A stretch of 40,431 nt of DNA from a virus, in IMG/VR virus record IMGVR_UViG_3300025132_007292, positions 1-40,431 of that record; one strand, given 5' to 3'. The position numbers and the translations under genes were made by a program. Of this stretch, positions 2,035-25,961 are shown in pieces. Below the pieces are notes generated by a model. The model made no database searches, was not told where the DNA came from, and saw only the letters and a list, made by a program, of their open reading frames with translations. Position 1 is the stretch's first letter. Each line of letters begins with the position of its first letter.

Positions 2035-2575
2035 TACGTATTTAATATTAACAAAAGCAAAGTGGGAATCAGCATTACCTGCTAAACTTAAAACTGCTGA
2101 TAGATTGTCTTGGAATGAGTACACTTATAAAGATGTTGAGCGTACAGGCTCAAGAAATGTAAATGTGACACTTCCTACTGATGACAATTTAAAGAGCGAA
2201 ATAAAAGCATTTATGGACACTCATAGCATAGATTATAGCAGTAGTGATACTAAAGCAGAGTTACTTGAAAGCATTGATGAGTATGTTATGGAAAATGGTG
2301 TACCTCAAGAAGCTGAAGAATATAAGTACACAGAATCTGTGGTAGATACCACCACATTGCAATCGCCAACATGGAAAGAGTGTGCATTTAAACATGGAAA
2401 ACTTGGTAGTCCAAGATGGAATAATGATGGTAGCAAAGTATTAGTTAAATATGAATTACCTATAACAGATGGCACATTAGACGCAGTTAAAAGTACAAGT
2501 GGTATCACTGCTTTGTCTCATAGTGAATGTTTAGAAGAAATGAAAAAGGATGAATGGTCTGGTGAAAGCGAATGA
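2027..2575 (+). CDS. Small phage protein with HeH/LEM-like (SAP-type) motif
   Basis: A 182-residue protein. I take the ATG at 2027, which has an AAAGGA ribosome site ten bases upstream and overlaps the end of the LamG gene; an in-frame ATG at 2006 is also open but lacks such a site. Residues around SEIKAFMDTHSIDYSSSDTK followed by AELLESIDEY match the two-helix HeH/LEM or SAP-like motif found in many tail-region proteins, where it is thought to bind nucleic acid or mediate assembly. The rest is not recognised. Its position just after the adhesin suggests a virion-associated or assembly role, which is inference. Confidence 0.6.
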   Translation: MTNTYLILTKAKWESALPAKLKTADRLSWNEYTYKDVERTGSRNVNVTLPTDDNLKSEIKAFMDTHSIDYSSSDTKAELLESIDEYVMENGVPQEAEEYKYTESVVDTTTLQSPTWKECAFKHGKLGSPRWNNDGSKVLVKYELPITDGTLDAVKSTSGITALSHSECLEEMKKDEWSGESE

Positions 2576-2843
2576 GCGGAAATTATTATTTTGGTGGATA
2601 GTGATGTTATTAATGATTTTGGGAGTAATTACTACAATAACTGGATGTAATAGCGGATGGTCTATTGGGAATTTAGATATAAGTCCTTCCGATTCTATTT
2701 ATATAGATTATTTAATCATTACAGATCAAGATAGTTCTCAACATTGGTATGTAACTAATACAGTAAACAATGGAATTGTTATTGGTGAAAATTATTGTTA
2801 CAAACATCATATTTGGGAAGATGTGAGAAAGAAAAGTGAGTGA
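2550..2843 (+). CDS. Putative phage lipoprotein
   Basis: A 97-residue protein with a positively charged N-terminus, a hydrophobic stretch (LLFWWIVMLLMILGVITT) and then I-T-G-C, which fits a lipobox. The mature part would therefore be lipid-anchored in the envelope. It overlaps the preceding gene by 26 bases and the next by 8. Next to a run of one-helix membrane proteins and an endolysin, an outer-spanin-like lysis role is plausible, but spanin partners cannot be assigned from sequence alone. A superinfection-exclusion lipoprotein is the main alternative. Confidence 0.6.
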   Translation: MNGLVKANERKLLFWWIVMLLMILGVITTITGCNSGWSIGNLDISPSDSIYIDYLIITDQDSSQHWYVTNTVNNGIVIGENYCYKHHIWEDVRKKSE

Positions 2844-3153
2844 AAAACCGAAGACAGCGCGTAGTTACAGGACGGGAATTATTGATGATAATTTTTCCCT
2901 TCACATTAATATTAAGTGGCTTGCTCAGTTGTTTGTGGCTATCGCTGGTATTGTTTATGGATACTTACAAATTACAAATAGAATTGCAGAGCTTGAACGA
3001 GGAATGGAACTCGCTACTGCCAACATTGAAGAACTTGTAGATAAGCATATGTTAGAAGAACAGAAAGAAAGAGCAGCGATGGAAGAAAGAATATCTTTTT
3101 TTGAAAAAGAATTAAACTTAAATCCATTTAGTTGGAGAAAGAAAAAAAAATAA
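2836..3153 (+). CDS. One-helix membrane protein with coiled coil (copy 1)
   Basis: A 105-residue protein starting at GTG, overlapping the lipoprotein stop as GTGA. A single hydrophobic helix (WLAQLFVAIAGIVYGYLQI, about residues 29-47) is followed by a heptad-rich charged tail ending in basic residues (WRKKKK). The pattern of helix, then Y/W-G-Y-x-Q-I/L-x-N-R-I-x-x-L-E, recurs in the gene at 3538, so the two look like diverged duplicates. Inferred to be part of the lysis or envelope module: a holin or inner-spanin-like protein. A second frame at 2840-3040 also encodes a hydrophobic stretch, but the duplicate supports this one. Confidence 0.6.
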   Translation: MSEKPKTARSYRTGIIDDNFSLHINIKWLAQLFVAIAGIVYGYLQITNRIAELERGMELATANIEELVDKHMLEEQKERAAMEERISFFEKELNLNPFSWRKKKK

Positions 3154-3251
3154 TGCCATTACCATTTCAATGTATTTATTGTGGAAAACATGTTAAAGAA
3201 CCCATGAATGGTATTTGTGATAAATGTAAAAAAGAGAAAGAAAAAAAATGA
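3153..3251 (+). CDS. 32-residue zinc-ribbon miniprotein
   Basis: A short reading frame fits exactly between its neighbours: its ATG overlaps the upstream stop (TAATG) and its TGA overlaps the next start (ATGA). The product has two CxxC knuckles, CIYC and CDKC, separated by 12 residues, followed by a lysine/glutamate tail. This is the layout of a single zinc ribbon. The perfect coupling on both sides and the cysteine spacing argue that it is a real gene. Function unknown. Confidence 0.6.
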   Translation: MPLPFQCIYCGKHVKEPMNGICDKCKKEKEKK

Positions 3252-3541
3252 CTGAATTAGCGGATTTATATCTTCAGTTAGGAAGTGCGGGATTTATTGC
3301 CTTATTGTTTGGATTTATGATATATAATCTAATACAAAGTCAAAAAGAACAAAGTGATGATTTAGAAGAAATAAAACAAAGTATTCATAAAATGGAAAAT
3401 GTTTTAGATCAAAGTATGGGAATTAATGTCAAATTAATTGATAGAACAAATAAATCAGATGAAAAAAGAGAAGAATTTTGGAGACAATTATCTGATGACT
3501 TAGCATACTTAAAAGGTCGTATTAATGGAAATGCAAAATGA
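3248..3541 (+). CDS. Holin-like one-helix membrane protein (BhlA/UviB-like layout)
   Basis: A 97-residue protein with an N-terminal hydrophobic helix (LGSAGFIALLFGFMIYNLI, residues about 11-29), then a long amphipathic coiled coil (QSQKEQSDDLEEIKQSIHKM) and a charged C-terminus. This is the layout of BhlA/UviB-type small holins and related phage membrane proteins. It is start-stop coupled to its neighbours and lies about 1 kb before the endolysin. The holin role is inference from architecture and context; no definitive holin signature exists at this length. Confidence 0.5.
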   Translation: MTELADLYLQLGSAGFIALLFGFMIYNLIQSQKEQSDDLEEIKQSIHKMENVLDQSMGINVKLIDRTNKSDEKREEFWRQLSDDLAYLKGRINGNAK

Positions 3542-3816
3542 ACTCAAATAAACCAATATCAGATAGTAGCAGTTTAAATATTAGCTTACCAATGCTTATT
3601 CAAGCAGTAGGTTTAATTGGTGCAATGGTTTGGGGATATGGTCAATTAAATAATCGCATATCTTTTTTAGAGTATCAAGTAGCTATTAATGAAGAACATA
3701 TTGTAAGAATGGAAGAAGATGCAGAAGCAAATCAAAATGCAGAAATACCAGCAGATATACGCCAAAATCAGCGAATTGAATATTTAGAAAAAGAATTAGA
3801 CAGATTAAGGCAATGA
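3538..3816 (+). CDS. One-helix membrane protein with coiled coil (copy 2)
   Basis: A 92-residue protein that begins with an ATGA overlap. A hydrophobic helix at about residues 18-36 (LPMLIQAVGLIGAMVWGYGQ) is followed by NNRISFLEYQ and a coiled coil ending in RIEYLEKELDRL. The junction resembles that of the protein at 2836 (NRIAELE), suggesting tandem duplication. Probably an envelope-spanning component of the lysis module, but it could be any small membrane-anchored scaffold. Confidence 0.55.
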   Translation: MNSNKPISDSSSLNISLPMLIQAVGLIGAMVWGYGQLNNRISFLEYQVAINEEHIVRMEEDAEANQNAEIPADIRQNQRIEYLEKELDRLRQ

Positions 3817-4052
3817 AATTGAACACAAAAGTATCATTTGAAAATATGATTGCAATCGCAGTTCTTTTAATAACTGTAGCTGTTTCTTATGGAGCAATGG
3901 ATACCAAATTAAAAATAGTTCAAAAAACTGTCGATTTAAAAGCAAATAAAGAATTAATTGAATACAAAATTACAGTTATGATGAAAGACATAGCTGAAAT
4001 AAAAGAAACCCTTAAGCAAATAAAAGGAGAACTAAATGGACTTCGTAAGTGA
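3813..4052 (+). CDS. One-helix membrane protein with coiled coil (copy 3)
   Basis: A 79-residue protein with an ATGA start overlap. A single N-terminal helix (MIAIAVLLITVAVSYGAM) is followed by a lysine-rich heptad segment (IAEIKETLKQIKGELNGL). It has the same helix-then-coiled-coil design as its two left neighbours but little residue identity. Function not recognised; the context suggests the same membrane complex or lysis module. Confidence 0.5.
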   Translation: MKLNTKVSFENMIAIAVLLITVAVSYGAMDTKLKIVQKTVDLKANKELIEYKITVMMKDIAEIKETLKQIKGELNGLRK

Positions 4053-4284
4053 ATGGTTAAGTTGGTCTAACTTACTTTACATGGTAGGATTATGTATTGC
4101 AGGTTATGCGACTACTGTAACTGCTAAAAATAGAAACATCATTGTTCAGGTAGGTGAATTGGTCAAAGCCCTTGAAGAAGGATTAAAAGATAAAAAATTA
4201 ACAAAAGCTGAAAAAGATAGAATAATGAAGGAAGCTTTAGATGTCGCTAAAGCGGTAATTCAAAGTAGATGGAAGCTTTGGTAA
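4036..4284 (+). CDS. Small membrane protein upstream of endolysin, possible holin
   Basis: An 82-residue protein preceded by an AAAAGGAGAA ribosome site. One hydrophobic helix (LLYMVGLCIAGYATTVTA, about residues 13-30) is followed by a basic amphipathic helix (LKDKKLTKAEKDRIMKEAL). It ends two bases before the endolysin start, the usual place for a holin. The single helix and lack of a known signature leave the assignment open. A pinholin-type or phage-holin superfamily member is the most likely reading. Confidence 0.5.
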   Translation: MDFVSEWLSWSNLLYMVGLCIAGYATTVTAKNRNIIVQVGELVKALEEGLKDKKLTKAEKDRIMKEALDVAKAVIQSRWKLW

Positions 4285-4285
4285 G

Positions 4286-4777
4286 ATGTCTATTTCCCCT
4301 GCTGAAATAATTGCAAATGTAATTGAAAGAGAAGGAGGGTCAAAAATAACTAATGACCCTTCAGATCCTGGCGGTTTAACTAAATACGGAATTAGTAAGC
4401 GTTCTAATCCCGACCTTGATATAGAAAATTTAACATTAAATGATGCAGTTAAAATTTATAACAAACGGTACTGGATGCCTTCAAAAGCATATCATTTAAA
4501 AGAATCATTACAAGAAATGTATTTTGATATGGTTGTTAATATGGGTCAAAGAAGAGCGGTAAAAATTTTACAAGAGGCAATTAATCATAAAGGAAATTCT
4601 ATTAAAGTCGATGGCTTAATTGGTAAAAACACTATTAAAACATCTGATTCTTTGGAGTTAGATCGTTTAAAAGCTTTTCGAGTTAAATATTATTCAACTT
4701 TGGTTAATAAAAAGCCATCTTTATTAAAATTTTATTATGGATGGTTTAGAAGGGCAATTGAAATTGAAACAACCTAA
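4286..4777 (+). CDS. Endolysin, GH108 family N-acetylmuramidase
   Basis: A 163-residue protein with the GH108 N-terminal signature: EREGG, then NDPSDPGG, then TKYGIS. The glutamate of the EGG motif (residue 16) is the expected catalytic acid. The second half, with FDMVVNMGQRRAVKILQEA and VDGLIGKNTI, fits the PG_binding_3 domain that accompanies GH108. No signal peptide is seen, so export would need a holin, and candidates lie immediately upstream. GH108 enzymes cleave the glycan strand of peptidoglycan and are mainly found in Gram-negative bacteria and their phages. The length is normal for the family. Confidence 0.9.
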   Translation: MSISPAEIIANVIEREGGSKITNDPSDPGGLTKYGISKRSNPDLDIENLTLNDAVKIYNKRYWMPSKAYHLKESLQEMYFDMVVNMGQRRAVKILQEAINHKGNSIKVDGLIGKNTIKTSDSLELDRLKAFRVKYYSTLVNKKPSLLKFYYGWFRRAIEIETT

Positions 4778-10854: not shown

Positions 10855-11267
10855 GCTATTCTAAAGTCCAAAAAGCGATGATGTCTGCTGATTCTAACAG
10901 GAGAGATGCGCGTAAATGGCAAATGGGCGGTATGATTGCAGGAGATTCTGTTCAAAAATTGCTTGAACTTTTTGAAACCAAAAAAGAACGATCAAAACGG
11001 TACGATGAAATAGTAAATATTTTAGATAAGACGGGAAATAAAGATAATTATGCAATTCCAAGCAAATTCAAATATTTACTAGGCAAAGAAGAAGCAACTT
11101 TTACAGATAAAGAAAGTGGAGAATCACTTCCATTTAATATGAATTCTCTTTATGGATTAGGTCTTAGTCAAAATAAAAATGCTTTAGATAAGTTTATGAA
11201 TAGTCTTGGTATATCTCCTGACGAAGGTCTTCAAGAATATTTTGAAACTTTAGAAGGAGATAAATAA
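10851..11267 (+). CDS. Small virion-block protein, unrecognised
   Basis: A 138-residue, mostly helical, charged protein with no recognised domain. The C-terminal half (MNSLYGLGLSQNK, then GISPDEGLQEYFETLEGD) looks globular. It is coupled on both sides (ATGA upstream, TAATG downstream) and opens a block of helical proteins that ends with two giants. The position matches small internal core or ejection proteins of podovirus-like phages, which is inference only. Confidence 0.55.
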   Translation: MSYSKVQKAMMSADSNRRDARKWQMGGMIAGDSVQKLLELFETKKERSKRYDEIVNILDKTGNKDNYAIPSKFKYLLGKEEATFTDKESGESLPFNMNSLYGLGLSQNKNALDKFMNSLGISPDEGLQEYFETLEGDK

Positions 11268-12280
11268 TGCATCGTAGAGGACATAACAATATGGGATTTG
11301 ATGATTTTTTAAATACATATAATAATCCGCAAGATGCAATGAATAATTTTTTATCACCAACTATTGATAATTATAATAGTACAAATTATATGTCGAGCGC
11401 ATTAGGTTCTCCATCAAATACATCTTTTGATACTCCTAATGCTTCTAAACAAGTTCCTAATTTAGATAGTCAAAATAGAAATGTAGGAATGAATGCAAAA
11501 GAAATTGTTGCAAAAAATCTCAATGCAGGGGCATTAACCAATCCTTCCTCTACCTCGTATTCTAATAATAATGTCCCTGCACCCTCTGTTGCTGATACGA
11601 ATATTCTTCCTAAAGCAACAGGAGCATTACCTGAAGCAATGGAAGGGCAATCTCTAATAGAAACAACTTCTGCTGTTGCAGATGCAACAAAATGGACAGA
11701 TAAACTTGATATAGGCAATGTTCTTGAAGCTGGAATGATGGTTGGTTCCAATCTTATGGCATCTAAAAATTTAGATGATTCTATAGATGATATTAATGAA
11801 GGATTAGATGGCATTACAGGAATGATTAGTACTCAAAATATAGATACTTTAAATGAAATAGGTTCTATAAAAGAAAATGCTCGAAATACAATTGATGCAT
11901 CAGCTGATTCTGCAAATCTTCGTTTAGGACAAGCTTTAGATAGTATTAATCAATCCAATATAAGTACAGGTACTGTTCGTAGAATGGGCAATGAAATTCG
12001 TAAAAAATTAGATAGAAATCTAGACTCTACTGCTAAAAATGTATTTGCAAAAAGTGAATCAGCAATTGATAGAGTTAATGTTTCTAATCGTGCAAGTATT
12101 GATAAGATAAGAGGACTTCAAGAGCAATTAAAAGCTAAAAAGAAACAAGCTCAAAAAGATAAAAAAATGGCTCAATGGGGTACTGCTATAGGAGTTGGAT
12201 CAGTAATATCAGATGTTTTGCTTCCTGGCTCTGGTCAAGTACTTAGAAGTGGTTTTAATACGTATAGTAGGTATAGTTAA
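11267..12280 (+). CDS. Internal virion / ejection protein candidate
   Basis: A 337-residue protein. The N-terminal third is low-complexity (asparagine, serine, proline); residues about 180-290 form a long helical coiled coil with repeated N-x-x-x-I/A-D patterns. The C-terminus has a lysine-rich helix (KAKKKQAQKDKK) and then a hydrophobic glycine-rich segment (WGTAIGVGSVISDVLLPGSG). The combination of coiled coil and membrane-active tail resembles the small internal core proteins of T7-like phages. Assignment by architecture and position, not by a family signature. Confidence 0.55.
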   Translation: MHRRGHNNMGFDDFLNTYNNPQDAMNNFLSPTIDNYNSTNYMSSALGSPSNTSFDTPNASKQVPNLDSQNRNVGMNAKEIVAKNLNAGALTNPSSTSYSNNNVPAPSVADTNILPKATGALPEAMEGQSLIETTSAVADATKWTDKLDIGNVLEAGMMVGSNLMASKNLDDSIDDINEGLDGITGMISTQNIDTLNEIGSIKENARNTIDASADSANLRLGQALDSINQSNISTGTVRRMGNEIRKKLDRNLDSTAKNVFAKSESAIDRVNVSNRASIDKIRGLQEQLKAKKKQAQKDKKMAQWGTAIGVGSVISDVLLPGSGQVLRSGFNTYSRYS

Positions 12281-13527
12281 TGGCAGACCCTAAACGACCA
12301 CAAAATGTTGATATAAATGCTTTATTTCGTATGCGAAATCAACAAATACGTCAAGAAACTTCTGATATTGACAATTTAATGACTATGTTTGATGAAAATG
12401 CTTTAAAAACAGATACGGTAGAAGGGTACGAAACTGCTATACAAAATATTGATAAAATATCAGGAGAGCATTCATATAATAAGATTAGAGGTAATCTTTT
12501 AAAAGAAAAATTAAATCTTGAAAAATCAAATCAAATGGTTTTTGATGAAATTCAAACAAATGCTACAAATTTGTTAGGTCAAGTTAAAGGTGGTGCAACA
12601 GATGGAATGATAGATTTAATTAACAATTTTAGTACATCTATCACCAATAATAAATCAAAATTTAATGATAATGAAATAACTAGTCTTAATGAAACATTAG
12701 GTATGATTGAAAATTTAAATGTACTAAATCAAACAAAACTTACTAATACTCAACTAGATGCTATTGCTCCTCAAACTCCTGAAGACCAAGCATTAGAAGA
12801 TTTTGCACAAAATATTGGTAGCGTTTCAAAAAGTGTCCAATATACAGAAGCTCGAGTAGGTGATATAGGTGCAAGAAGAGAGGCACAAGCTAAAGCAGTA
12901 AGCGATAGAATAGAATCTAGTCAAGGTTATGCAGGTATTGGTAAAGAAAACTATCAAACAATGACTAAAAACTTAGTTGGAATTAATACTTCAGTACAGA
13001 ATTTAAAAAGAAATTTAGCAACTCAAGGATTTGTTATTCCAATAGATTTTGCGACAGAAAACATAGTTGGTGACGGTAAAAATGTTATTGATAAAACCTT
13101 TCCAAAAGATGTTTTAAAACAATATAATAAAGCTATTGTTTCTATTGCGGGTGCAAAAATGGTTCAAGAAACGAATAAAACTTTTTATGAGGGTGGTAAA
13201 AATTTAGCAATGAATCGTGATGGTTCTTATACGGAAGAATTTATTGATACATTAATAGCGCAAATAGAAGCAAAAGAAGACCCTGCAAAATTATCTGAAA
13301 ATTTAGAAAAAAGACTAGGTCCAAAAAGTTTAATGACTCCTGTTGGCAATAAAAGTGATTTTTCAGTTCAATTAACTTCATTTTGGAAAGAAATAACGTC
13401 TAATAGAAACGATATATTAGATATAATGGCTAATAAAAATCCTTCTAATCCATTAAATACAAAACAAAGCCAAGGTGGTTTTAATGTAATGGATTTAAAT
13501 GACGTAATTGGGATTGATGGTAATTAA
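12280..13527 (+). CDS. Coiled-coil internal virion protein candidate
   Basis: A 415-residue, almost wholly helical protein with no cysteine cluster, membrane helix or enzyme motif. The frame starts one base into the previous stop (TAATG). It precedes the giant RNA-polymerase-like gene by two bases. A structural core or scaffold role that supports ejection of the two giants is the best guess from context. Confidence 0.5.
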   Translation: MADPKRPQNVDINALFRMRNQQIRQETSDIDNLMTMFDENALKTDTVEGYETAIQNIDKISGEHSYNKIRGNLLKEKLNLEKSNQMVFDEIQTNATNLLGQVKGGATDGMIDLINNFSTSITNNKSKFNDNEITSLNETLGMIENLNVLNQTKLTNTQLDAIAPQTPEDQALEDFAQNIGSVSKSVQYTEARVGDIGARREAQAKAVSDRIESSQGYAGIGKENYQTMTKNLVGINTSVQNLKRNLATQGFVIPIDFATENIVGDGKNVIDKTFPKDVLKQYNKAIVSIAGAKMVQETNKTFYEGGKNLAMNRDGSYTEEFIDTLIAQIEAKEDPAKLSENLEKRLGPKSLMTPVGNKSDFSVQLTSFWKEITSNRNDILDIMANKNPSNPLNTKQSQGGFNVMDLNDVIGIDGN

Positions 13528-13529
13528 GT

Positions 13530-16500
13530 GTGCCTATACCTAGAAACGATATATCTAATACTCCTGAAGGTCTAGCTACTTATGAACAAATCATAAGTCA
13601 AGACGAGACTTATTTTCCTGAAGGAAACATTCCTTTAATATATAAGCCTACGCAAACTAGAGATAAAAGTGCGTATTGGCATGAAGATTTATTTCAAGTT
13701 TTAAATCAACAAATTGAACAGATTGACCCTGAATTACCTCGTTATAATTATCAAGAGGATGTAGTACAAGATTTAAAGAAAAACTACGTTCCTTTTAATA
13801 AATATCGAGCTATTCTTTCAGAGAAATCTACAAATATTCCTATTTTTTCTAGGTTAACACCTACTCATCAAAAACGAATTGTTGACCAAGAAGCTTTAGA
13901 TATGTCCGCTCTACATAACTATGTGATCTCTAAAATGCCTAAAGACATGGAAGATGATGATAAACGTCGTTTAATGAAAACGTACAATGGCTATTTTAAT
14001 CAAAATGTTTTGCCTCAAACAATAGATAGAATGAGAAGATATTCTGCTCGTGAATCTGTAGATGCATCTAATGATAATATTAAACAAAATTTTTTAACTA
14101 CCATACAAGGATTATTAGAAGGAGCAGGTAGTACAATAGAAAGAAAAGGAATTTTAGGCGTAAGTACTGAAACAGAAAAAGCATTAAATACAACATTTGA
14201 AGGATGGGCTGAAAATGTAAAAGGGTGGATTGGCGATTTAGAACAAGGCACAGGTATTTACTCAATGTCTGATGAAGAAATAGCAAAAGATATTGGTGAG
14301 CATAATTTATTATTTATGACTGCTCCTACATTTAAATCAGGATATTTGTTTAATAAAGTAGCAGAAGGATTTGCTCAGCAAGTAGTTACATCTGGATTAC
14401 CTTGGGCAGGTGGTGTTATGGGAGGCGCAATAGGAACTTCAGTAGGCGGTCCTGTAGGTGGTGTAATTGGATTTGGTATTGGTGCAGTTACATCTGTTAT
14501 TCCTGGGTTTTTAGTTGAGTCTGGTTCTTTTGAAGATGAAATGAGCGATAATTGGGAATCATTAAGAGAACATGCAAAACAAGCAAAAGAAGGCAATTGG
14601 TATTCTGATGAAAAATTTAAAGAAATGTTTACTGTGCCTTTAGATGAAGATGGCAATTTAAATATTACTGCTGACAAATTAACTGATAAAACAATTAAAG
14701 ATATTACTGAAAATTTATCTCAGCTTTATGCGTTAAAAGCTACTGGTTATGAACTTGCAGGTACTGCATTAACAGTATTAGGTGGAAAAGCATTTACTGC
14801 TTTACATGGACAAGCTATTAAAACTCATTTTATGAGTAAAATGGGTCAACGAGCTGCCGCCAATCGTTTTTTTCAAGCTGTTAAAAAGCCATTAGCTATT
14901 CCATCAAAATTAATATTTGATGTATCTCAAGAAGCTTATGTGGAAGGAGAACAAGAAGACATAAATATAAGCATGATGGAACCTTACATGGCTAATTATA
15001 ATAAGATGTCTGAAGAAGAAAAAGATAGGCGTATTAAATCAGCAAGGTTTCAAGGTGGTGTTATTGGTGCTGTTTTTAGTGGTGGTCAAATGTATGTTGA
15101 AAATCGAATGAAAAATCGAGCGATAGATACGGAAAACAGAGCTATTCAAATAGAAGATCAAGCCAACTACAAAGATATTACGATTATTGATGAACAAATA
15201 AAGGAATCTAAAAAGAAAGGCAATCTTTGGATTAATGATGATGATTTAGCAGTTCAAATTGCAATGTCTATTGACCCTACAATGTCTGAATTTAGAGATA
15301 TTGTTAGAGATAATAGTGAAGACCCCGCAGGAGTAGATAATTTAATTGTTTCAAGGACAAAAAATAATTATCAAATACAACATGGTAAAGCTTTAGGAAA
15401 GTTATTATTAAAAAATAAAACCAAAGCTAAAAAAATAATGAAGCAGTTAGGTTTAACTGCAGCTCATTTTGCAACTACAGGATTAAGTACAAAGGATTTT
15501 ACTTCATTGTTCGGTAAAAAATTAGCAGATACGCTACTAGACAAACAAACAATGGACAATTTAACAGATGAAACAACAAATGAGGATTTTGGAGACTATA
15601 CTCAAGAAAATCCAAATGATGTTTATGATGACCAAGAACTTAATCATGGAGAGCAAGTTGTCGATGAAGAAATGTCTAAACTTGTTAAGCAGTTTAATAA
15701 TCTTTCAAATGCTATTAGCAGATTAAAAAAACAAAAGAAAAAGCCTTCTCCTGCTCAAGAAAAAAAATTAAAACAACTTCAATCTCAAATATCTGCATTA
15801 AAAAAGTCTGGTAAAAAGAAAACTGCAATTAAAAATAATCAACAAAATGTAAATACAATAACAGGAGAATTAAATGAAAGTGACCCTACAAGTATTACTA
15901 CATTAAATCTTGATAATATTGTAGGTAAGAGCAAATCTAAAATGTCTTTTATTAAAGACAAAAAAGATGGTCAGCGTATTGATTTAAAGATTATATCTAA
16001 ATCAACAGAGACTAATCCTAAAACAGGTAAAAAAGAAACTGTATATGTTGTTGAGCCTAGTGTAGGTAAAGAAGCAGCATCTCAAGGGAGTAAACCTTCT
16101 GACTCTTCACAATTTAAATTATTTCAATCTGAAATTGATATTGCAATTACAAAGGTAGGTAATAATCCTCCTAAAAGATGGAAAGCTCCTATTCCTCAAG
16201 AAGAAAAAACAAATTATTTGAATGAGCAAATAACAGATGAAAAGAAATCAGAAACAAAAGAAAAGGGAATGACTTTTAGTTCTTTTGACCAACCTATTGA
16301 AGTGGGAGATTTAAAAAATACTACTACGGCAACTATTTCTGACCTTGCATACATAAGACCTAACTTTGAAACTATATTAAAAGCTTTTAAGAAAAGTAAA
16401 AAGAAAACAATGAAAGCTTTTATGTCTTTAGCTCCTCGCTTAATTGAAAATTATAGGCTTATTAAATCAGAAAGTGGAGATATACTTATATTAGAAGATG

Positions 16501-19500
16501 GAAAAGCAATTGGTGAAATAAAAGCAGACGAAACTGAAAAAGGATTAAGAACAGAAAGTTTAATTTTAGGAAAAGGTAAAAATGCAATAATAGTAAATAA
16601 TGTTGTCAGTGTAAATAACGCTGATACTCAAGTTGCTAAATACAACATACCACCTATTAAATCAGAAAAAACTACACAAAATCTTTCTAAGCCTAAAGTA
16701 AAGCCAACAAAAACCACTAAATCAGGAGTAACATTATATAAAAAATTATATTCTAATTTATCAAATCAGTTTGATGCATTTGCAAATTTAATAAAGCAGA
16801 CTATGAATGTTGTTGGTTTATCTAAAGGTGAAAGATTGTGGAATAAATATGCATCTTGGTATGGTGATGTAGATTATACCTATTCTGGCAAAACACATAA
16901 AATGCAAGAAATGCCTTCTGAAATTCAAGCTATTGCTAGAAATATAGAGCAACAATTAGGACTTGAAGAAGGGTATTTTAATAGTGCTTTAGCTAATGTA
17001 TTTCCTAAAGGTCAGCAATTAGGAGAACATGCGGATGATGAAAAGATATTTGTAAGAGATAATAAAACAATTGGAAAAGTTGCTACTGTTAGTTTAGGTG
17101 GCTCTACTAAAATTATAATTAGAAATATAAAAACCAATAAAAAAGAATCTATATTGGTTCAAGATGGTGATTTATATGTTATGCCAGGGCAAACATTTCA
17201 AATTGAGCATAAACATTCAGTAACTCCAACACAAGGTGAAAGAGTTAGTATTACTTTTAGGCATATTCCAGAATCTAGGTTACCTGCAAAAAAAGAAACT
17301 AAACTTACGTTAAATGAATTAATAGAGACTGGTTCTGCTTCTGATGTATTTATAGAAATTGCAAAATCAGGTAATGCAATATTTAGAGGAATTGCAACTT
17401 TTGTTGCTGAAAACATTGGCAATGTAAATATACGTTTTGATAAAAGAATTAAAGTTCAAGGCAAGTGGAACGGTAAAGAAATTATTATCAATCCTAATAA
17501 CATTGATAGTAGGGAAGCTTTAGAACAAACGCTATTACATGAGGCTATACACGCTACTACGTCTAATTTAATTAATAAATACTTAAAAGGTACTTTATCT
17601 AAAAAATCCTCTGTATATCAAAGCATAAAGGCTTTAGATGATATATTTAATGAAATTAAAGACGGACTTTCATCTACAGAAAAAGACAAAGTATCTACAT
17701 TACAAAAATTCATAGAACAATATAAGTCTGGAAAACTTTCTAAATCTGATATGGATTTAGCAGTTGAATTAAGAGAAGAATTCTATGGACTTGAAAACTT
17801 AAAAGAATTTGTTGCTGAGTTAATGACAAATGAAGTTTTTCAAGAAAAGTTAAAAAAGATTAAGTACAAAGGTGAGAATAAAACTCTTTATCAAAAATTT
17901 AAAGAACTTATTGCTTCTGTTTTTGGTGTTAAAGCTGGAAATAATGCTTTATATAATGGCTTAATCAATGCAATTGATGTTGTTCAATATAAAGGAGAGG
18001 TAGTTAAAAAAGCTCCTCCAATTACGCCAGTTTCAAAGAAAGATATGGGCAATGTTACTTTAAAAGATGAACAAGAATTTGATGATTGGTTTAACGATGG
18101 AGATGACACAAATCTAGATGATGGGTCTTTACTTGTAGATGAAACAATAGTAGGTCAAAACATTGTTGATAATCTTACCAATGTTGATCCTTTGTCTGAC
18201 CCTAATGTTCCTGAAGAAGATAATAGCTTTTTAATTAAATGGGGAAAGAATAAAGGTGTTTTAAATCGCAAATCTAAAAAGAGAGCTTATCGTGCATTTG
18301 AAAAAGGATTTGTAGATATTATTAGAAAACATGGACTTCCTTTAAGTTATTTTACTGAATATAGAAGGTCAATGAATGAAAAGCTTGAAAACATTGATTA
18401 TATTAAAAAATACTTCAATAAATGGGCAGATGATTATCAAGTAACCTTAGAAGAATATCCTGATAGATTATTTTCGTTTGATGTTCCTGACGATGAATCT
18501 TTTAATGCTATGGTTAAAAACGATAAAGCATTTAGTGATTATGCTGAAACTTTTCAAAGTGCATTGGATATGACTGAAGAGCATGTTCGTCAAGGGATTG
18601 GCATAGATAATGAAGGCAAATTAGAAGCTGATACTAAAGCAGAAAACTTTAATCAAATTGATACAGGATTTTTTAAAGCAATTGGTCTGTCACCTACCGT
18701 AGAACAAATGACCGTTATTTGGGAACTTTTAAATAATACGGATTTAGAAGGCTTTATTAAGGGAATGTCTGATTCTAAATTTATTCGTGAGAATAAACTA
18801 TTTTTAGAAAAAGGAAAAACATTATCTGAATTATTAGATACAGATATAAATGGTAGAATTAACAAGGTGTTAACTCGTTTTTGGGTTTCCAATTTAAGAG
18901 ATAATAGAACGCCTTCTAATAGAGGTATTAATCAAAAAGATTCTATACAAAGTTTATATGCTATTTACAGGGCTCCTAAAAAAGATGAAGATGGAAATAT
19001 AATAGAGCCAGGATATTTTACTTTTAAACCTAAAGACCAATCTGTTATTGAAAAGATAAGAGGTAAAATTCAGTTACTTTATAAAAATTTACCAAATAAA
19101 CTACGTTCAAGAGCTGTTGAATCATTATTTGGCGATGGGGAATTACGTTATATTTCTTTAAAAGATTTATGGAGATGGCAAGTTGAAGATTCAGCAGAAG
19201 AGGGAAAAAATAAATCATATCATTTAGTAAAAGATATAAAAAATTTAAATTCAGAATTATTACGAAATTTTATTCGTAGCTCACTTAAAACAGGAATGGT
19301 TCCTATTTTAGTTCGAGGAGATACTGATTTAATTCCAATGGTTCGTATTACAAAAGAGCATAATGATTTTGCAAGTGATAGAAATGTAAGAACATATTGG
19401 AAACGAGAATTAGACCTTGTACCTGATGATTTAAAAACAGATGTAAAACGAAATTGGATTATGAAATATATTGCTCAGTCTACAACAGATGATGTGCAAT

Positions 19501-22262
19501 GGTTTACGGGGTTAAACAACATATTATATGCTCGTAGAAAATACAATGCAGCAATGATAGCAAGGCATGAGGCGTATAAAAAGATTTATGGAGATGATTA
19601 TTGGATTCATTTAACCTCACACAATATGCTTCATCGAGCAAAACTGCCTTTTGGTGTCGGTAATTCTAATCCTTTAATGCCAAATAAGCGTATTATTGTT
19701 TTAAATCCAAGAATATCTGATGTTGGTGAAGTTAAAGAGGGAAAAATATCAAAAAGTAGAGCAGTTATTCGCAAAATATATCATGGTGGTACAGTTAATG
19801 AAATTCCATTAGTTCAAGAAATAGATGGGCAACTTCAATATATATGGGATGGAATGACCCTTACTTCTGAAAAAGTTCATGCTCAAGATTATCCTGAATA
19901 TTTTGGAACAAATGATAAAGCAAGAAGAGCAAAAACATTCTTTTACGAAAGAGGCGAAATAGGTGCATTAATTAATAAACATCAAGAAATGTCTCCTTAT
20001 CTTGAAGATGGTGTAGAAAAACTTGAAATAACCAATGGTTTTGGCGATGTAGTAGCCACTATATCTAAAGATTCTGATGGTTATGTAAATATAAAAGATG
20101 CAGAAGGTAATTATGTAGATTATTTATCTTCTCCTGATGAAACAAAGATTATGACTGGAGAATATGCAAATAAATATGACCAACCTATAGAAATTGATGG
20201 CAAATCTATTCGTCTTATTATGTATCCAAGAGATAATGATAAATCGTATGGTAAATTTTTTAAGCAGTTAATGAATTATTTTCCTGATTCAAGAATGCAA
20301 AATTTAGTTCGTGAGTTTTTTGATGATGCTGACCCTAGAAAAAAGTTTAGTCCTCGTAGTTTATTTAAATTATTTGTTGAAATTGCAACAAACCCAAAGA
20401 AAATGGATGAATTTAAACGTACTTATTCTAGTGCGACTATTGATGGACTTCCACTTGCAATGGCTAGAAATGCTGAACTTGGAGTTGGATTTCATCCTAC
20501 AGATTCAGGAACAAATGCAAATGTAGTTAAAAATGCAATTTTACAAGAAATATCTGAATTTAAGACATATGGTAGTAAGCTTGATTTTAGAATGGATATG
20601 ATGGGTCATTTAGAGGATAATGAAATTGTATTACCTAGTGACCATAAAATTGTACAAAATATTAAAAATATAACAGGATTAAGAACTAGAGATGAAATCA
20701 ATACTTGGCTTTTAAACAATGATTTAGAAGTACTTGCTATTCGTTCTCCTGTACCTTCACGATTTGGTTATCGAGTATTAAAAATCAAAAGTATTGAACC
20801 TATTGGAGATACTTTTATGGTAAATCCAAAGATTGTTAAACAAGTATTTGAAGGTGATGGAGATGGCGATACTGCTACAATTGTATTTTTAAATAATAAA
20901 CAAAAAGAATTGTTAAAAGAATTAAAAGACAGGCAAGAATTAACTGGAGGATTGGCACTTTCTGCATCAGATCAAAATATTGATATATCAACTTTAGAAG
21001 GTCTTGCTGAAGGAATTTCTATTATGCAAAATGGAAAAAGAGCAATTAGTCAAGTTGCAAATATTGCTAAAAATGTAGGAATTATGTCTACTTGGTTTAA
21101 AGAAATGATAGTTAATGATGGTGAGCGAAAAATTAAAATGAGAAAACTTACTGATGTTGTAGAAGATTCAGATATGGGTGAGTCTCACAGTATAGAAAAT
21201 TTATTAAGAATGTATTTACAAGCAGGAGCTGACCATGCAAAGTTGTTATTACTCGGTCCAGATCAATGGAATTACAGCGTAGAAAAATTATACAGTATGG
21301 TGTTTTATTATGAAGATGCTCCTAATGAATTAATATCTGAAGAACATTATAAAATAATAAGAAAAGAAATTTTAAGACCAATGACTAGAGCGGGTTCTGT
21401 ATTAAGGGGTCATGATATGGATAGTCAATTACGATTTGCAGATTATCTTGAAAGAAGTGAGGAGTATCTTGATTTTATTGAAAATAGAAATGAAATAATT
21501 GAAGAAAGTGAAGGAGCTATTATTAAAGGCAAAACTTCAATTAATCATGTATTAGAACATATTATTGTTTCGTTTGCAAAAGAAGCATATGCAAATGGTA
21601 TTGATGGTGACCAATTTACTACTCCGTTTGGAACTTCAAAGTATATTCATTCAACTACTGTTAAAAAACATGCTGAAAAATGGACAAAAGAAACAATGGA
21701 CATTGCTTTTGAGGAAGAAGGCTATGATTTAAAGAATATGACTAATGAAGAAAAAGACCAAGCTAGAAGAGTTATTATGCCTAAGATACAAACTGCAATT
21801 AAACTAGCACAGAATTTTAGTACACAACTTCATTTTGCTATTAAAAAACGTAGGGTAGAAGAAATGTTAGATGATGATGAAAATGCAAGAGCATTTTCTT
21901 CTAATACATTTATGTTTGACCCAAGAGCAGCTGAAGTGTTAGAACGATTTTTAGGTATTATGGATGATTTTGACTACACTAATTATATGAAACGAGCTTT
22001 TACTGCCTCATTTTTAAATGATACGGTAGATATATCGAAACGTGGAGCAAGTGCTGTAAAAAGTAAGTTAGTTATTCCACCAACTGACCCTGTAGACCCT
22101 AGAAATGCATTATTGGATAAAGACATTATGAAAGAATATTATGGCGATTATAATGCCCTTAGAAGCGATTTAGATGGTGTTATTAAAACAGAAGCACCTT
22201 CTTTATTAAAGACAATTGAATATGTAAAAGATGAGTTTGAGAAAAAAGGATGTATGATATGA
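13530..22262 (+). CDS. Giant multidomain virion protein: AlkB-like dioxygenase, HExxH peptidase motif, RNA-polymerase-like DPBB domain
   Basis: A 2910-residue protein from a GTG start. Residues 294-328 are a glycine-rich hydrophobic segment able to enter membranes. At about 720-765 lies a lysine-rich coil. Residues 1080-1250 match AlkB 2OG/Fe(II) dioxygenases: SWYGDVDYTYSG (1109-1120), H1167-x-D1169, H1229, and R1238 and R1244 in RVSITFR. At 1337-1341 is HEAIH, with a KEFVAE helix at 1425-1430 offering a third zinc ligand. Residues about 2100-2580 look like the catalytic core of two-barrel RNA polymerases: WDGMTLTSEK (2106-2115), LDFRMD (2351-2356), R2405-S-P, an N-P pair, the D2443-G-D2445-G-D2447 triad, and A2567-D-H-A-K2571. 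The nearest relatives by logic are YonO, QDE-1-type and crAss-like virion polymerases. Packaging in the virion is inferred from gene position. The middle of the triad is glycine where a bulky residue is usual. Confidence 0.75.
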   Translation: MPIPRNDISNTPEGLATYEQIISQDETYFPEGNIPLIYKPTQTRDKSAYWHEDLFQVLNQQIEQIDPELPRYNYQEDVVQDLKKNYVPFNKYRAILSEKSTNIPIFSRLTPTHQKRIVDQEALDMSALHNYVISKMPKDMEDDDKRRLMKTYNGYFNQNVLPQTIDRMRRYSARESVDASNDNIKQNFLTTIQGLLEGAGSTIERKGILGVSTETEKALNTTFEGWAENVKGWIGDLEQGTGIYSMSDEEIAKDIGEHNLLFMTAPTFKSGYLFNKVAEGFAQQVVTSGLPWAGGVMGGAIGTSVGGPVGGVIGFGIGAVTSVIPGFLVESGSFEDEMSDNWESLREHAKQAKEGNWYSDEKFKEMFTVPLDEDGNLNITADKLTDKTIKDITENLSQLYALKATGYELAGTALTVLGGKAFTALHGQAIKTHFMSKMGQRAAANRFFQAVKKPLAIPSKLIFDVSQEAYVEGEQEDINISMMEPYMANYNKMSEEEKDRRIKSARFQGGVIGAVFSGGQMYVENRMKNRAIDTENRAIQIEDQANYKDITIIDEQIKESKKKGNLWINDDDLAVQIAMSIDPTMSEFRDIVRDNSEDPAGVDNLIVSRTKNNYQIQHGKALGKLLLKNKTKAKKIMKQLGLTAAHFATTGLSTKDFTSLFGKKLADTLLDKQTMDNLTDETTNEDFGDYTQENPNDVYDDQELNHGEQVVDEEMSKLVKQFNNLSNAISRLKKQKKKPSPAQEKKLKQLQSQISALKKSGKKKTAIKNNQQNVNTITGELNESDPTSITTLNLDNIVGKSKSKMSFIKDKKDGQRIDLKIISKSTETNPKTGKKETVYVVEPSVGKEAASQGSKPSDSSQFKLFQSEIDIAITKVGNNPPKRWKAPIPQEEKTNYLNEQITDEKKSETKEKGMTFSSFDQPIEVGDLKNTTTATISDLAYIRPNFETILKAFKKSKKKTMKAFMSLAPRLIENYRLIKSESGDILILEDGKAIGEIKADETEKGLRTESLILGKGKNAIIVNNVVSVNNADTQVAKYNIPPIKSEKTTQNLSKPKVKPTKTTKSGVTLYKKLYSNLSNQFDAFANLIKQTMNVVGLSKGERLWNKYASWYGDVDYTYSGKTHKMQEMPSEIQAIARNIEQQLGLEEGYFNSALANVFPKGQQLGEHADDEKIFVRDNKTIGKVATVSLGGSTKIIIRNIKTNKKESILVQDGDLYVMPGQTFQIEHKHSVTPTQGERVSITFRHIPESRLPAKKETKLTLNELIETGSASDVFIEIAKSGNAIFRGIATFVAENIGNVNIRFDKRIKVQGKWNGKEIIINPNNIDSREALEQTLLHEAIHATTSNLINKYLKGTLSKKSSVYQSIKALDDIFNEIKDGLSSTEKDKVSTLQKFIEQYKSGKLSKSDMDLAVELREEFYGLENLKEFVAELMTNEVFQEKLKKIKYKGENKTLYQKFKELIASVFGVKAGNNALYNGLINAIDVVQYKGEVVKKAPPITPVSKKDMGNVTLKDEQEFDDWFNDGDDTNLDDGSLLVDETIVGQNIVDNLTNVDPLSDPNVPEEDNSFLIKWGKNKGVLNRKSKKRAYRAFEKGFVDIIRKHGLPLSYFTEYRRSMNEKLENIDYIKKYFNKWADDYQVTLEEYPDRLFSFDVPDDESFNAMVKNDKAFSDYAETFQSALDMTEEHVRQGIGIDNEGKLEADTKAENFNQIDTGFFKAIGLSPTVEQMTVIWELLNNTDLEGFIKGMSDSKFIRENKLFLEKGKTLSELLDTDINGRINKVLTRFWVSNLRDNRTPSNRGINQKDSIQSLYAIYRAPKKDEDGNIIEPGYFTFKPKDQSVIEKIRGKIQLLYKNLPNKLRSRAVESLFGDGELRYISLKDLWRWQVEDSAEEGKNKSYHLVKDIKNLNSELLRNFIRSSLKTGMVPILVRGDTDLIPMVRITKEHNDFASDRNVRTYWKRELDLVPDDLKTDVKRNWIMKYIAQSTTDDVQWFTGLNNILYARRKYNAAMIARHEAYKKIYGDDYWIHLTSHNMLHRAKLPFGVGNSNPLMPNKRIIVLNPRISDVGEVKEGKISKSRAVIRKIYHGGTVNEIPLVQEIDGQLQYIWDGMTLTSEKVHAQDYPEYFGTNDKARRAKTFFYERGEIGALINKHQEMSPYLEDGVEKLEITNGFGDVVATISKDSDGYVNIKDAEGNYVDYLSSPDETKIMTGEYANKYDQPIEIDGKSIRLIMYPRDNDKSYGKFFKQLMNYFPDSRMQNLVREFFDDADPRKKFSPRSLFKLFVEIATNPKKMDEFKRTYSSATIDGLPLAMARNAELGVGFHPTDSGTNANVVKNAILQEISEFKTYGSKLDFRMDMMGHLEDNEIVLPSDHKIVQNIKNITGLRTRDEINTWLLNNDLEVLAIRSPVPSRFGYRVLKIKSIEPIGDTFMVNPKIVKQVFEGDGDGDTATIVFLNNKQKELLKELKDRQELTGGLALSASDQNIDISTLEGLAEGISIMQNGKRAISQVANIAKNVGIMSTWFKEMIVNDGERKIKMRKLTDVVEDSDMGESHSIENLLRMYLQAGADHAKLLLLGPDQWNYSVEKLYSMVFYYEDAPNELISEEHYKIIRKEILRPMTRAGSVLRGHDMDSQLRFADYLERSEEYLDFIENRNEIIEESEGAIIKGKTSINHVLEHIIVSFAKEAYANGIDGDQFTTPFGTSKYIHSTTVKKHAEKWTKETMDIAFEEEGYDLKNMTNEEKDQARRVIMPKIQTAIKLAQNFSTQLHFAIKKRRVEEMLDDDENARAFSSNTFMFDPRAAEVLERFLGIMDDFDYTNYMKRAFTASFLNDTVDISKRGASAVKSKLVIPPTDPVDPRNALLDKDIMKEYYGDYNALRSDLDGVIKTEAPSLLKTIEYVKDEFEKKGCMI

Positions 22263-25200
22263 GGAATCGATGTAAAGACACAAAAGATATAGTAACAGAA
22301 TCATATATCGGTGCAAATGTAGAACGTAATTATACTGACCCAAATATGGAAAATTTAAATAAAGATAGTAGGGTTGGTGGATGGATTAAACGATTGTTTA
22401 AAAAATTTGAACATAAAGGCGAAGTAACTCAAGAAGAAGTAAAGAAATTTGCAGATAATTATTTTAAAACAGATACTGAAAGCACAAAGATACAGATTAT
22501 TTTGGCAATTACATCTGCATTGGGGAAAAGAAAAGATTTACGAGATTTATTCTATTACAAGCTAAGTGAAATTGTAAATGAGAATATGGCAAATTTACCC
22601 GACATTGAAGGTGGCTATATTTTATCTCGAATGGATGATGGTACTAACATATATAATATGTATCAACTTCCCTATTCTATGGTGTTACAAGCAGGTGTAA
22701 TGCTAGACCAAGATTTAATGTCTATGGATGAAGATTCTGATTTAAATATAAAATCGGGTTGGTTTGGTAATTTAGTTTATGAATTTATGCTACCTAAGAA
22801 TGTTGCTTATAAGACAACTACACCTTCATTAGTAAAATTTATTAAATCTATTACTTATTTTAATCAACGAAGAGAAGCGACGGAAAAAGAATACACTTCT
22901 TCTAATCCCAATGCTCCGTTAAATGATTATGAAATGGAACCAGAAAGAGATAAAAATGGCAATATAAGGTTAGATAAACAAGGCAATATCATTCGTTCTA
23001 ATATGCCTAAAAAATATAACCGTAATATGTTTGGCTTATCTCAGCTTTATAATTCTGAATTAGCAGAGGTTTTTAATCAATACGGGCAGAAATATTTTAA
23101 AGATGATGTAGCATTAATGGATTTTATTCATTTAACAATGATGAATTTGATAAAGATTGATAAAGATGGTAACGCATGGTTAAAAACAGAATTTGGGAAA
23201 TTATATGAGGGAGACAAGGTAATAAGGTATAAAGATGGAAATCCAATTATAAAACATCATAGTTTAGAGCCTTTAATTATAAAAGATGGTAGGATTGTCA
23301 ATTGGAATAAAGACCATAGAGATATTGTTAAAGAAGATGATAAAAATATAGCGGGTGAATCTGTATCGCAATTGCAATTTAATACAAAGATAAATCCAGT
23401 TACTAAAAAAGATGATTATGATATGATCTATGAACTTATAGATGGCATACAAGTAGCTTTATGGAATTTTGGACACCAAGTAAAATTTAAAGGTGATGAA
23501 CAATCTGCTAGATATAATGATTTATTATTAAGAGCAGAACAAGAATTGTCTGGAGCTGAACTTGCAGAATTTAAAACAATGGCTGACCAAATGTTTGAAG
23601 GTGAATTGTTTGGCATACATGGACTTACTCAATTTGAATTGCAAGAAAAGGACAAGCATTATTTCCCTAAAAAACTTACAGTAGGTAACAGAACCTTTTA
23701 TATGAGTAAAGCAGAAGAAAATTTGATGCAGAATATTGCAGATACTCAAATGAAAATCAATCAGCTTATGGATGACCCTAAGGCAAATAAGAAAAGAATA
23801 CCTTTATTAAGACAGCAATTATTTGATAATACTCGCGCATTAGAAATTATATCTGAAAAATTAAGAATTTTACATCATGGAAATACAAACTTTGATGAAA
23901 CAGGTTCGCAAAATCCTATCTTTTTACACAACTATGTAAAGAATTTTAAAAGCGTTACAAATATGATTCCTTATGAGGCATATCGTACAGATGAACATGT
24001 GGTAAGAGATTATATCAGTGAAACATCTCGTCAACTAGAGCGTAGAGGATTAGCAAATGATTTATTAGAAGGGTTTTTAGAAGCAAAAGGAAAGCCAAAA
24101 GCAAAATTATATATGATTAATATGTTTAAAAGGTTATTTCAATATCCTGATGCTAGAGGAATTATTGCTGGAATTCCAACAAGTGATGATAAGTTAGACC
24201 GTTTTTTTAAAAAATGGATGCCAGGCTATACAGGTAAAAAACACAATATAAATCGTTTATTTAAAGATTTTTCTGCATTGCATACTTCTACATTGTTAAG
24301 TGGAGCTGCTGATGGTTTTATGAATTATTTTTCTACTTTACAAGATATGGTAAATAGTGGTAAAGATTCATTTTTTGATGCATTTAGTGAATATACAAGT
24401 AATAAAAGTAAATGGGAAAATTTAGCTGAAAAAGCAGGTATTATTACATTTTCTAAATATTTAGAAGGATATGTAGATGATATTTTAAGAACTGAAGATA
24501 GAAAACAAGCTGTTGAAATAAAAAAGCAATTAATGGGTCTTGTTAATAAAATTGAGAATCATAAAGGGAAAATACCTCTTAGTCAAAGAAAGTTTTATTT
24601 ACGATATAAAAGAGATATAGACCTTATTAATGCGCAATTACCTTCGAAATTTCAAGTATTAACAGGTACATTAGCTAGATATGCTATTAATCATCGTATA
24701 GAAACATCTAAATATGAAAAAGGATTTTCAAAAAGATTAAAAGATGTAACGGGTGCTTATACAATAGCTCCTTCTATACAACAAACAGAACAAGTATTAA
24801 GAACAATATCATTTATTATTGGATGGAAAAATGCAGAAAAAATAACTAGAGGTTTTCCTAATATTAATGAAGCAGATAAAATACAACTTGCTAGAGAATA
24901 TGTATATTTTACTCAATTTGGGTTGGAAGCTCATTTGGTAGGTGAAGCAACAGGTAGTTCATTTACAAAGTTTTTAAATGGAATTACAAGTTTTAGAAAA
25001 CAAAGAACAGGATTTGATGTACGCAAAAACAGAGAATGGTTACGCACATTTTGGAATCCTACTAGTTTAATTGATTCATTAAATAAAAATATTAAAACAG
25101 ATAAAAAACAATTATATAAAGCTAGATTATCAGCTAGTGCTGGTGCTAAAGCATTATTTAGTTTGCTTAATTGGAGAGGTACAGGTTCTAAAAGGTCAAA

Positions 25201-25756
25201 ATTATTGCGAAAAGCAGTTCCTTCTGCAGCTCAAGGTGAATCTATGTTTTTTATGTATGGAGCTGGTTCTCTTTTTATGCATTTTGTAATATTTGGAAGT
25301 GCAACAACTTCAATTATGGGAACATTTATTAAAGGTATTTTTATGAAAAATAATATGGTTCAAGCGGGAACTGGTTTTACTTCACCTTATTATATGGGTA
25401 TATTAGCCACTGGTAGCTTGACTTATGCATTAGCAAAAGATGCATTAAGCGATGATGAAGAAGACGATATTAGGTTTTATGATTTTTATCGATTATTTAG
25501 GGGGATGTATGGTACAGGATATATGGATTTATTTTCTATCGTTTACGGAATTGCACAAGCAACGAGGAATTATATAATAGGCGATATGCCTGAAAAAAGG
25601 GATTATTATAATGACCCAAGTAAACATGTTACGTTTAAACCAGATTGGTTTAATCCAGTTGGATTTGTTAGAAAGGCTACAGATGCAACTATTGATTTGG
25701 GTAAAAAATGGTATGAAAGAGAAAAATCTGAATCATATCGTTTTAGGAATTATTAA
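22259..25756 (+). CDS. Large internal virion / ejection protein
   Basis: About 1165 residues. The ATG at 22259 overlaps the previous stop (ATGA) and has an AAAAAAGGA site eight bases upstream, so I prefer it to the ATG at 22250, which is too close to that site. The chain is mostly helical. A KDKHYFPKKL stretch near residue 460 resembles a motif I have seen in other large ejected proteins. The C-terminal part has hydrophobic helices at roughly residues 995-1025 (FFMYGAGSLFMHFVIFG), 1040-1060 and 1085-1103. No catalytic motif was found. Translational coupling to the RNA-polymerase-like giant suggests that the two act together, perhaps as an ejection conduit. It is the last gene of the rightward virion block. 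Confidence 0.6.
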   Translation: MRNRCKDTKDIVTESYIGANVERNYTDPNMENLNKDSRVGGWIKRLFKKFEHKGEVTQEEVKKFADNYFKTDTESTKIQIILAITSALGKRKDLRDLFYYKLSEIVNENMANLPDIEGGYILSRMDDGTNIYNMYQLPYSMVLQAGVMLDQDLMSMDEDSDLNIKSGWFGNLVYEFMLPKNVAYKTTTPSLVKFIKSITYFNQRREATEKEYTSSNPNAPLNDYEMEPERDKNGNIRLDKQGNIIRSNMPKKYNRNMFGLSQLYNSELAEVFNQYGQKYFKDDVALMDFIHLTMMNLIKIDKDGNAWLKTEFGKLYEGDKVIRYKDGNPIIKHHSLEPLIIKDGRIVNWNKDHRDIVKEDDKNIAGESVSQLQFNTKINPVTKKDDYDMIYELIDGIQVALWNFGHQVKFKGDEQSARYNDLLLRAEQELSGAELAEFKTMADQMFEGELFGIHGLTQFELQEKDKHYFPKKLTVGNRTFYMSKAEENLMQNIADTQMKINQLMDDPKANKKRIPLLRQQLFDNTRALEIISEKLRILHHGNTNFDETGSQNPIFLHNYVKNFKSVTNMIPYEAYRTDEHVVRDYISETSRQLERRGLANDLLEGFLEAKGKPKAKLYMINMFKRLFQYPDARGIIAGIPTSDDKLDRFFKKWMPGYTGKKHNINRLFKDFSALHTSTLLSGAADGFMNYFSTLQDMVNSGKDSFFDAFSEYTSNKSKWENLAEKAGIITFSKYLEGYVDDILRTEDRKQAVEIKKQLMGLVNKIENHKGKIPLSQRKFYLRYKRDIDLINAQLPSKFQVLTGTLARYAINHRIETSKYEKGFSKRLKDVTGAYTIAPSIQQTEQVLRTISFIIGWKNAEKITRGFPNINEADKIQLAREYVYFTQFGLEAHLVGEATGSSFTKFLNGITSFRKQRTGFDVRKNREWLRTFWNPTSLIDSLNKNIKTDKKQLYKARLSASAGAKALFSLLNWRGTGSKRSKLLRKAVPSAAQGESMFFMYGAGSLFMHFVIFGSATTSIMGTFIKGIFMKNNMVQAGTGFTSPYYMGILATGSLTYALAKDALSDDEEDDIRFYDFYRLFRGMYGTGYMDLFSIVYGIAQATRNYIIGDMPEKRDYYNDPSKHVTFKPDWFNPVGFVRKATDATIDLGKKWYEREKSESYRFRNY

Positions 25757-25760
25757 CTTC

Positions 25761-25961
25761 CGTTACAAATACGTTACAAATTATTATTGAAAAGTAGGAT
25801 AATATTTAGGATTTATAGAGAATTGCCTGGGTGGTGGAATTGGTAGACACTACGGACTTAAAATCCGTTGGCAGCAATGCCGTAAAAAGGCTCATTTATA
25901 GAGGGTAAAGTAAGGTAGGTTGGTATGCCTAAATATGTCCCGTTACAAATACAGGACAAAT
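25761..25961 (+). repeat. CGTTACAAAT repeats, putative integrase arm-binding sites
   Basis: Copies at 25761-25770, 25772-25781 (11-base spacing, same face of the helix) and 25941-25950, all in the same orientation, plus a degenerate GGACAAAT at 25954-25961. They flank the tRNA core at distances typical of arm sites. Isolated GTTACAAAT copies also occur at 27155 and 35851 and may be chance in this AT-rich sequence. Confidence 0.6.
25825..25883 (+). tRNA. Truncated tRNA-Leu(UAA): 5' acceptor strand to variable arm only
   Basis: The segment starts with GCCTGGG (acceptor 5' strand), has a D-arm typical of leucine tRNAs (GGTGGAATTGGTAGACAC), an anticodon arm ACGGA-CTTAAAA-TCCGT with anticodon TAA, and a class II variable arm GGCA-gcaa-TGCC. 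The T-arm (GGTTCRA) and a 3' acceptor strand complementary to GCCTGGG are absent; after 25883 the sequence is AT-rich. So it cannot be a working tRNA by itself. It most likely is the attP core that recombines with a host tRNA-Leu gene, the host supplying the 3' part. Confidence 0.75.

Follow-up and report, generated by a model that had tools for sequence, protein, structure and literature searches.

The window analyzed here (the whole stretch of 40,431 nucleotides) is the virus record IMGVR_UViG_3300025132_007292 from IMG/VR. It contains an intact giant open reading frame (ORF), and a predicted structure gives good support to the view that residues ~1790-2900 of its product form a single-chain two-barrel DNA-directed RNA polymerase. 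An earlier note, made from the letters and their translations, had proposed a polymerase-like barrel here, packaged by the phage for early transcription. The protein combines several enzymatic domains in one chain (AlkB, zincin, and polymerase), and these are shuffled between relatives. The gene's features are:

13530..22262, + strand: giant ORF, 2910 amino acids, GTG start; N-terminal module, AlkB-like domain, zincin, and predicted C-terminal two-barrel RNA polymerase
14454..14519, + strand: hydrophobic Gly-rich stretch resembling a membrane segment (residues 309-330)
16249..17295, + strand: mobile AlkB-containing module, its DNA 97% identical to that of the relative L001; the AlkB-like 2-oxoglutarate-Fe(II) oxygenase core (residues 1108-1244) lies inside it
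17367..17984, + strand: zincin-like metallopeptidase domain (residues ~1280-1485), with HEAIH at 1337
18897..22136, + strand: predicted RNA polymerase module (residues ~1790-2869), its extent matched to QDE-1, RDR2, and gp66
19647..20294, + strand: predicted first double-psi beta-barrel, DPBB-A (residues ~2040-2255), containing WDGMTLTSEK (19845-19874)
20556..20954, + strand: predicted second barrel, DPBB-B (residues 2343-2475); LDFRMD lies close to where it begins
20742..20870, + strand: catalytic block from R2405-S-P to D2443-G-D2445-G-D2447, the putative Mg-binding triad
20994..21095, + strand: long helix in the AlphaFold2 model (residues 2489-2522), a candidate bridge helix
21219..21242, + strand: QAGADHAK, with Q2564, A2565, and D2568 invariant in the family alignment
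22251..22253, + strand: C-terminal Cys2908, kept wherever a family member has a complete C terminus

The motifs lie where the earlier note had placed them. RSP begins at residue 2405 (nucleotide 20742), 38 residues ahead of DGDGD at 2443-2447 (20856-20870); an N-P pair ends ten residues ahead of D2443, and TATIVF follows at 2448. WDGMTLTSEK (at 2106), LDFRMD (at 2351), and ADHAK (at 2567) are also present, and several relatives read A-V-D-N at the last site, which had been likened to the A-V-D motif of other polymerases. The proposed analogies of motif and spacing hold as well: gp96 of phage P23-45 combines R-N-P-V with an identical 38-residue step, and the crAss-like polymerase gp66 has R-I-P, G-D-T, and DFDID. 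DGDGD is the sole DxDxD in the 2910-residue protein. When the protein was shuffled 3000 times, R-x-P-x(35)-DxDGD never arose, and a looser form (x32-41, DxDxD) arose in 41 shuffles. The triad string is weak evidence by itself because patterns that include E[GA]DGDGD matched at least 599 IMG/VR stretches, and just 8-9 of these encode relatives.

Conservation across 11 sequences is a stronger test than these shuffle counts. The family comprises the window and ten relatives from IMG/VR (L001, L003, L004, L015, L016, L018, L019, L020, L022, and L025), which are 22-48% identical to the window; identities refer to the last 1200 residues, and model numbering plus 1710 gives window numbering. R[SV]P[VI], E[GA]DGDGD, and Y-x2-DG-x4-S are kept in all ten relatives. 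In the 11-row alignment, R695, P697, E731, and D733-G-D-G-D737 (model numbering) are invariant in 11 of 11 sequences, and so are D397-G398, S403, K425, K440, D493-E494, K496, Q536, and N539 upstream. Candidate active-site lysines in DPBB-A are the invariant K2135 and K2150 and the near-invariant K2242 (window numbering). In L020, the residues ahead of the triad read LHPLLIFKDLEGDGDGD, which LHPLV...NADFDGD of the bacterial beta' subunit closely resembles. The glycine that the earlier note called unusual occupies the variable x of DxDGD and is invariant across the family. The extreme divergence and the long mosaic gene might suggest that the barrel fold is no longer an active polymerase and works instead in ejection, as a structural or DNA-gripping protein. 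However, the triad, R-x-P, and several Lys, Asp, Gln, and Asn residues do not vary even at 22% identity, although the rest of the sequence drifts, and we consider loss of activity very unlikely.

The AlphaFold2 model, which covers residues 1711-2910 and used the 11-row alignment, has a mean predicted local distance difference test score (pLDDT) of 81 and a predicted template-modeling score (pTM) of 0.77. A search of PDB structures with this model gave 16 matches at E ≤ 1e-3, and every one of them is a single-chain two-barrel polymerase, including QDE-1 (E = 3e-11), gp66 of phage phi14:2 (2e-10), P74 gp62 (1.7e-5), and phage gp64 (7e-5); cellular beta' chains rank next. VIA-align gave Z scores of 14.2 for maize RDR2, 13.5 for gp66 (817 residues aligned), and 13.0 for QDE-1. 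The triad segment (2343-2475) aligns with AR9 beta' at 2.5 Å over 126 residues and with Mycobacterium smegmatis beta' at 2.6 Å over 123 residues. Several of the beta' structural alignments, considered as ranges rather than residue by residue, run beyond the helix at 2489-2522. Segment 2031-2275 folded alone with a pLDDT of 81 and a pTM of 0.79; on re-alignment, DPBB-A alone was closest to residues 885-1343 of gp66 (Z = 11.0, 149 residues), followed by RDR2 (Z = 7.8) and RNA polymerase beta (4.5), and the gp66 and RDR2 scores are well over those of unrelated rows. Among viral predicted structures, the matches include two close relatives (A0A516LSI3 and A0A516LUR1, TM-scores of 0.73-0.81) and many crAss-like proteins. 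The predicted fold is that of a single-chain two-barrel RNA polymerase, and the model supports the presence of both barrels, each matched separately or by range, with DPBB-A preceding DPBB-B along the chain.

We also considered whether DGDGD might be a calcium-binding loop, similar to that of dockerins or EF-hands, with a coincidental likeness to polymerases. The string does occur in hundreds of unrelated viral stretches, but the predicted barrel fits beta' as described above and the top matches are all polymerases. The earlier note had named a fold lacking a double-psi barrel, or a triad on a calcium-binding loop, as grounds for abandoning its proposal; neither is seen in the predicted fold. 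We rejected the calcium-loop reading on this basis and consider it almost certainly wrong.

The zincin region of the giant protein matches gp37 of phiKMV and other internal virion or ejection proteins of phiKMV-type phages. It also matches a structural protein of a Flavobacterium phage and, weakly, the virion RNA polymerase of EcP1. HExxH is present in most of the family's giant proteins that reach far enough toward the N terminus. The N-terminal halves otherwise diverge: AlkB is found in the window and L001, a superfamily 1 (PIF1-type) helicase in L020, and a GHKL ATPase in L025. The hydrophobic stretch at residues 309-330 has no counterpart in the relatives when the same cut-off is applied. 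At the other end of the protein, the conserved cysteine lies 0-3 residues from the C terminus in family members with a complete end.

The giant gene lies within a structural and morphogenesis block, after genes for tail-type and internal proteins and before a gene of 1168 amino acids, which is followed by an integrase. Its neighbors are:

11267..13527, + strand: two genes (337 and 415 amino acids) that come after the tail-type genes and ahead of the polymerase gene; candidate ejection proteins
22250..25756, + strand: partner gene, 1168 amino acids, directly after the polymerase gene

The partner gene has a counterpart beside the polymerase in 9 of the 9 relatives with downstream sequence. Its protein is weakly similar, over a local stretch, to gp67 of phi14:2, the product of the gene after gp66. 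Considered as a possible second polymerase subunit, it gave no family match beyond this weak similarity. A leftward early block (27.9-40.2 kb) encodes a DnaB-like helicase, a single-stranded DNA-binding protein, a ParB-like protein, and others. One relative, G003 (which includes L004, L006, L010, and L012), is a 55-kb contig with terminase, portal, and head genes. Among the matches listed, the best ones for its large terminase subunit, head, and portal proteins are from non-crAss phages. The giant gene of G003 spans the contig ends, pointing to a nearly complete genome with circular permutation.

Neither Rfam nor ARAGORN identified RNA genes in the window. Just upstream of the integrase, we read 25826-25905 as similar to the 5' half of a tRNA-Leu(UAA), although neither tool called it; in L003 and L004, a core of 41-47 nucleotides shows 90-96% conservation. 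This stretch is likely to be an attachment site, and the virus that encodes the giant protein probably integrates. An imperfect repeat, CCGTTACAAATAC, occurs at 25760 and 25940. At 2550-4284, beside the endolysin (4286-4777), are short ORFs with hydrophobic stretches that resemble holins or spanins.

Comparison with L001 suggests that the polymerase cassette has been exchanged as a block. The two DNAs are 93-96% identical on both flanks of ~12,667-25,750. Within these ~13 kb, similarity is limited to the AlkB module (97%) and some short segments; the L001 polymerase is 34% identical to that of the window and the partner gene 29% identical. The flanks of the AlkB module barely align, and the module lies on opposite sides of the zincin in the two proteins. 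This rearrangement is in frame, which, judging from the sequences rather than from reads, counts against a simple assembly artifact.

Taken as a whole, we think it quite probable that a C-terminal two-barrel polymerase sits on an ejection chassis, is packaged and injected, and transcribes the early genes. Its packaging, injection, and early transcription are likely, which we infer from the gene's position and from a zincin of the kind common to internal virion proteins. By homology, DPBB-A would provide lysines, D2443, D2445, and D2447 of DPBB-B would hold the catalytic Mg ions, and R2405 would be positioned near the substrate. The N-terminal half, with its zincin peptidase and AlkB-like oxygenase, would be the ejection chassis. 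The chain would be packaged with the neighboring internal proteins and threaded into the cell along with the DNA, and the polymerase would then transcribe the leftward early block without the host RNA polymerase. The zincin may detach the polymerase from this chassis or have the envelope as its target, and a possible role for the AlkB domain is to repair or protect the incoming DNA or RNA. More broadly, there may be a family of two-barrel virion polymerases, undetectable by sequence, carried on an N4-like chassis in integrase-bearing non-crAss phages, with the ~13-kb cassette exchanged blockwise; we are evenly divided about this wider proposal.

Several results weigh against the packaged polymerase. 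First, searches with the polymerase half against Pfam, PHROGs, PDB sequences, and phages (tblastn) found no significant polymerase match. Neither tblastn nor a profile hmmsearch of PDB sequences (gp66 included) detected a relationship to gp66, and hhalign against the crAss and P23-45 polymerases gave P values of 0.05 to 0.7, which are below significance. The crAss alignment (P = 0.05) pairs IRSPV...IGDTFMV...DGDGDTATIVF with YRIPN...MGDTIVA...DFDIDKMYVML, and despite their non-significance, both this alignment and the combined P23-45 profile settle on the correct motif register. L022 alone weakly matches the RdRP family of Pfam (E = 0.014). A scan of genome contigs identified no relative, and a scan for further relatives of L025 returned L025 alone. 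As there was no significant sequence match, this is an unlabeled, divergent family. Many two-barrel families have little common sequence outside the triad (PMC10770324), which agrees with our searches.

Second, TM-scores for the whole model are low (0.33-0.41 for the top matches) and the root-mean-square deviations are large, so the agreement is confined to the cores. DPBB-A alone had gp66 as its top Foldseek match, but this was weak (E = 0.06). The Asp triad is placed by the fit of the barrel segment, not at the atom level.

Third, early DNA that is ~96% identical in the window and L001 is awkward beside polymerases that are 34% identical, if the enzyme is promoter specific: were the polymerase to recognize the early promoters, almost the same DNA would have to be read by two widely diverged versions. 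If the ~13-kb cassette was exchanged as a block, early transcription may be independent of tight matching between polymerase and promoter. We also looked for a shared promoter-like motif upstream of the early genes, and the best 9-mers were no commoner than in shuffles. The lack of an early promoter motif is also a point in favor of a two-barrel polymerase that acts in the infected cell without being in the virion. Such an enzyme could be a late-made or non-virion RNA polymerase, as P23-45 gp64 is, or an RNA synthase resembling a primase, and its fusion partner would be a multidomain protein of the conflict type. Among the two-barrel polymerases of phages, several do not belong to the virion (PMC10770324). 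However, this gene is in the structural block, its zincin occurs in annotated internal virion proteins, and gp66 and gp96 belong to large virion proteins (PMC10770324, PMC7886860). Thus, we consider a non-virion enzyme unlikely and favor the packaged polymerase.

Virion polymerases allow a phage to transcribe its genes ahead of host takeover. To our knowledge, the two-barrel virion polymerases for which there are data are those of crAss-like phages and P23-45. The giant protein would be a new architecture, in which the N4-type kind of zincin is joined to a two-barrel enzyme instead of a T7-like enzyme. Since the same kind of zincin occurs with different polymerases, injected proteins resemble chassis that take interchangeable polymerases. 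The cassette swap between the window and L001 is a natural experiment on promoter specificity. By extending the QDE-1/crAss branch, the family would also be relevant to how the RNA-interference polymerases arose.

Among known systems, N4 gp50 of the Schitoviridae is a giant ejected protein in which a polymerase is combined with a zincin (PMC5512222, PMC12633501). It resembles the giant protein in having an HExxH zincin in the same chain as the polymerase, but its polymerase has the unrelated T7-like single-subunit fold and its domain order is different. YonO of SPbeta is a single-chain enzyme of a temperate phage that resembles multisubunit RNA polymerases (PMC5467207); compared by description alone, it differs in being about 100 kDa and without a virion chassis. 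QDE-1 and plant RDR2 had the top structural scores for the whole model, and the weak Pfam match of L022 points the same way, but these are eukaryotic, non-phage RNA-interference polymerases with RNA or DNA templates. Closer in organization is phi14:2 gp66 (PDB 6VR4), which is also a single chain with DPBB-A before DPBB-B, has R-x-P, GDT, and DxDxD, and is encoded in a virion gene block with a very large next gene; it is also the best match for DPBB-A in isolation. It differs in having DFDID instead of DGDGD, in the lack of significant sequence similarity, and in the AlkB domain found here. One relative here has a genome of ~55 kb, there is an integrase, and the capsid, portal, and terminase are not recognizably crAss-like among the best matches listed. 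P23-45 gp64 is a two-barrel polymerase and a structural match to the model (PMC10770324). The virion RNA polymerase gp96 of P23-45, which is fused to the tape measure, is likewise a two-barrel single chain, and its 38-residue step leads to DFDGD. In gp96 the polymerase is N-terminal to the tape measure, whereas here it is C-terminal to the zincin and AlkB domains, without a firmly identified tape measure. By analogy, the giant protein would resemble crAss gp66 and P23-45 gp96 in how it works, while lying outside both families at the sequence level.

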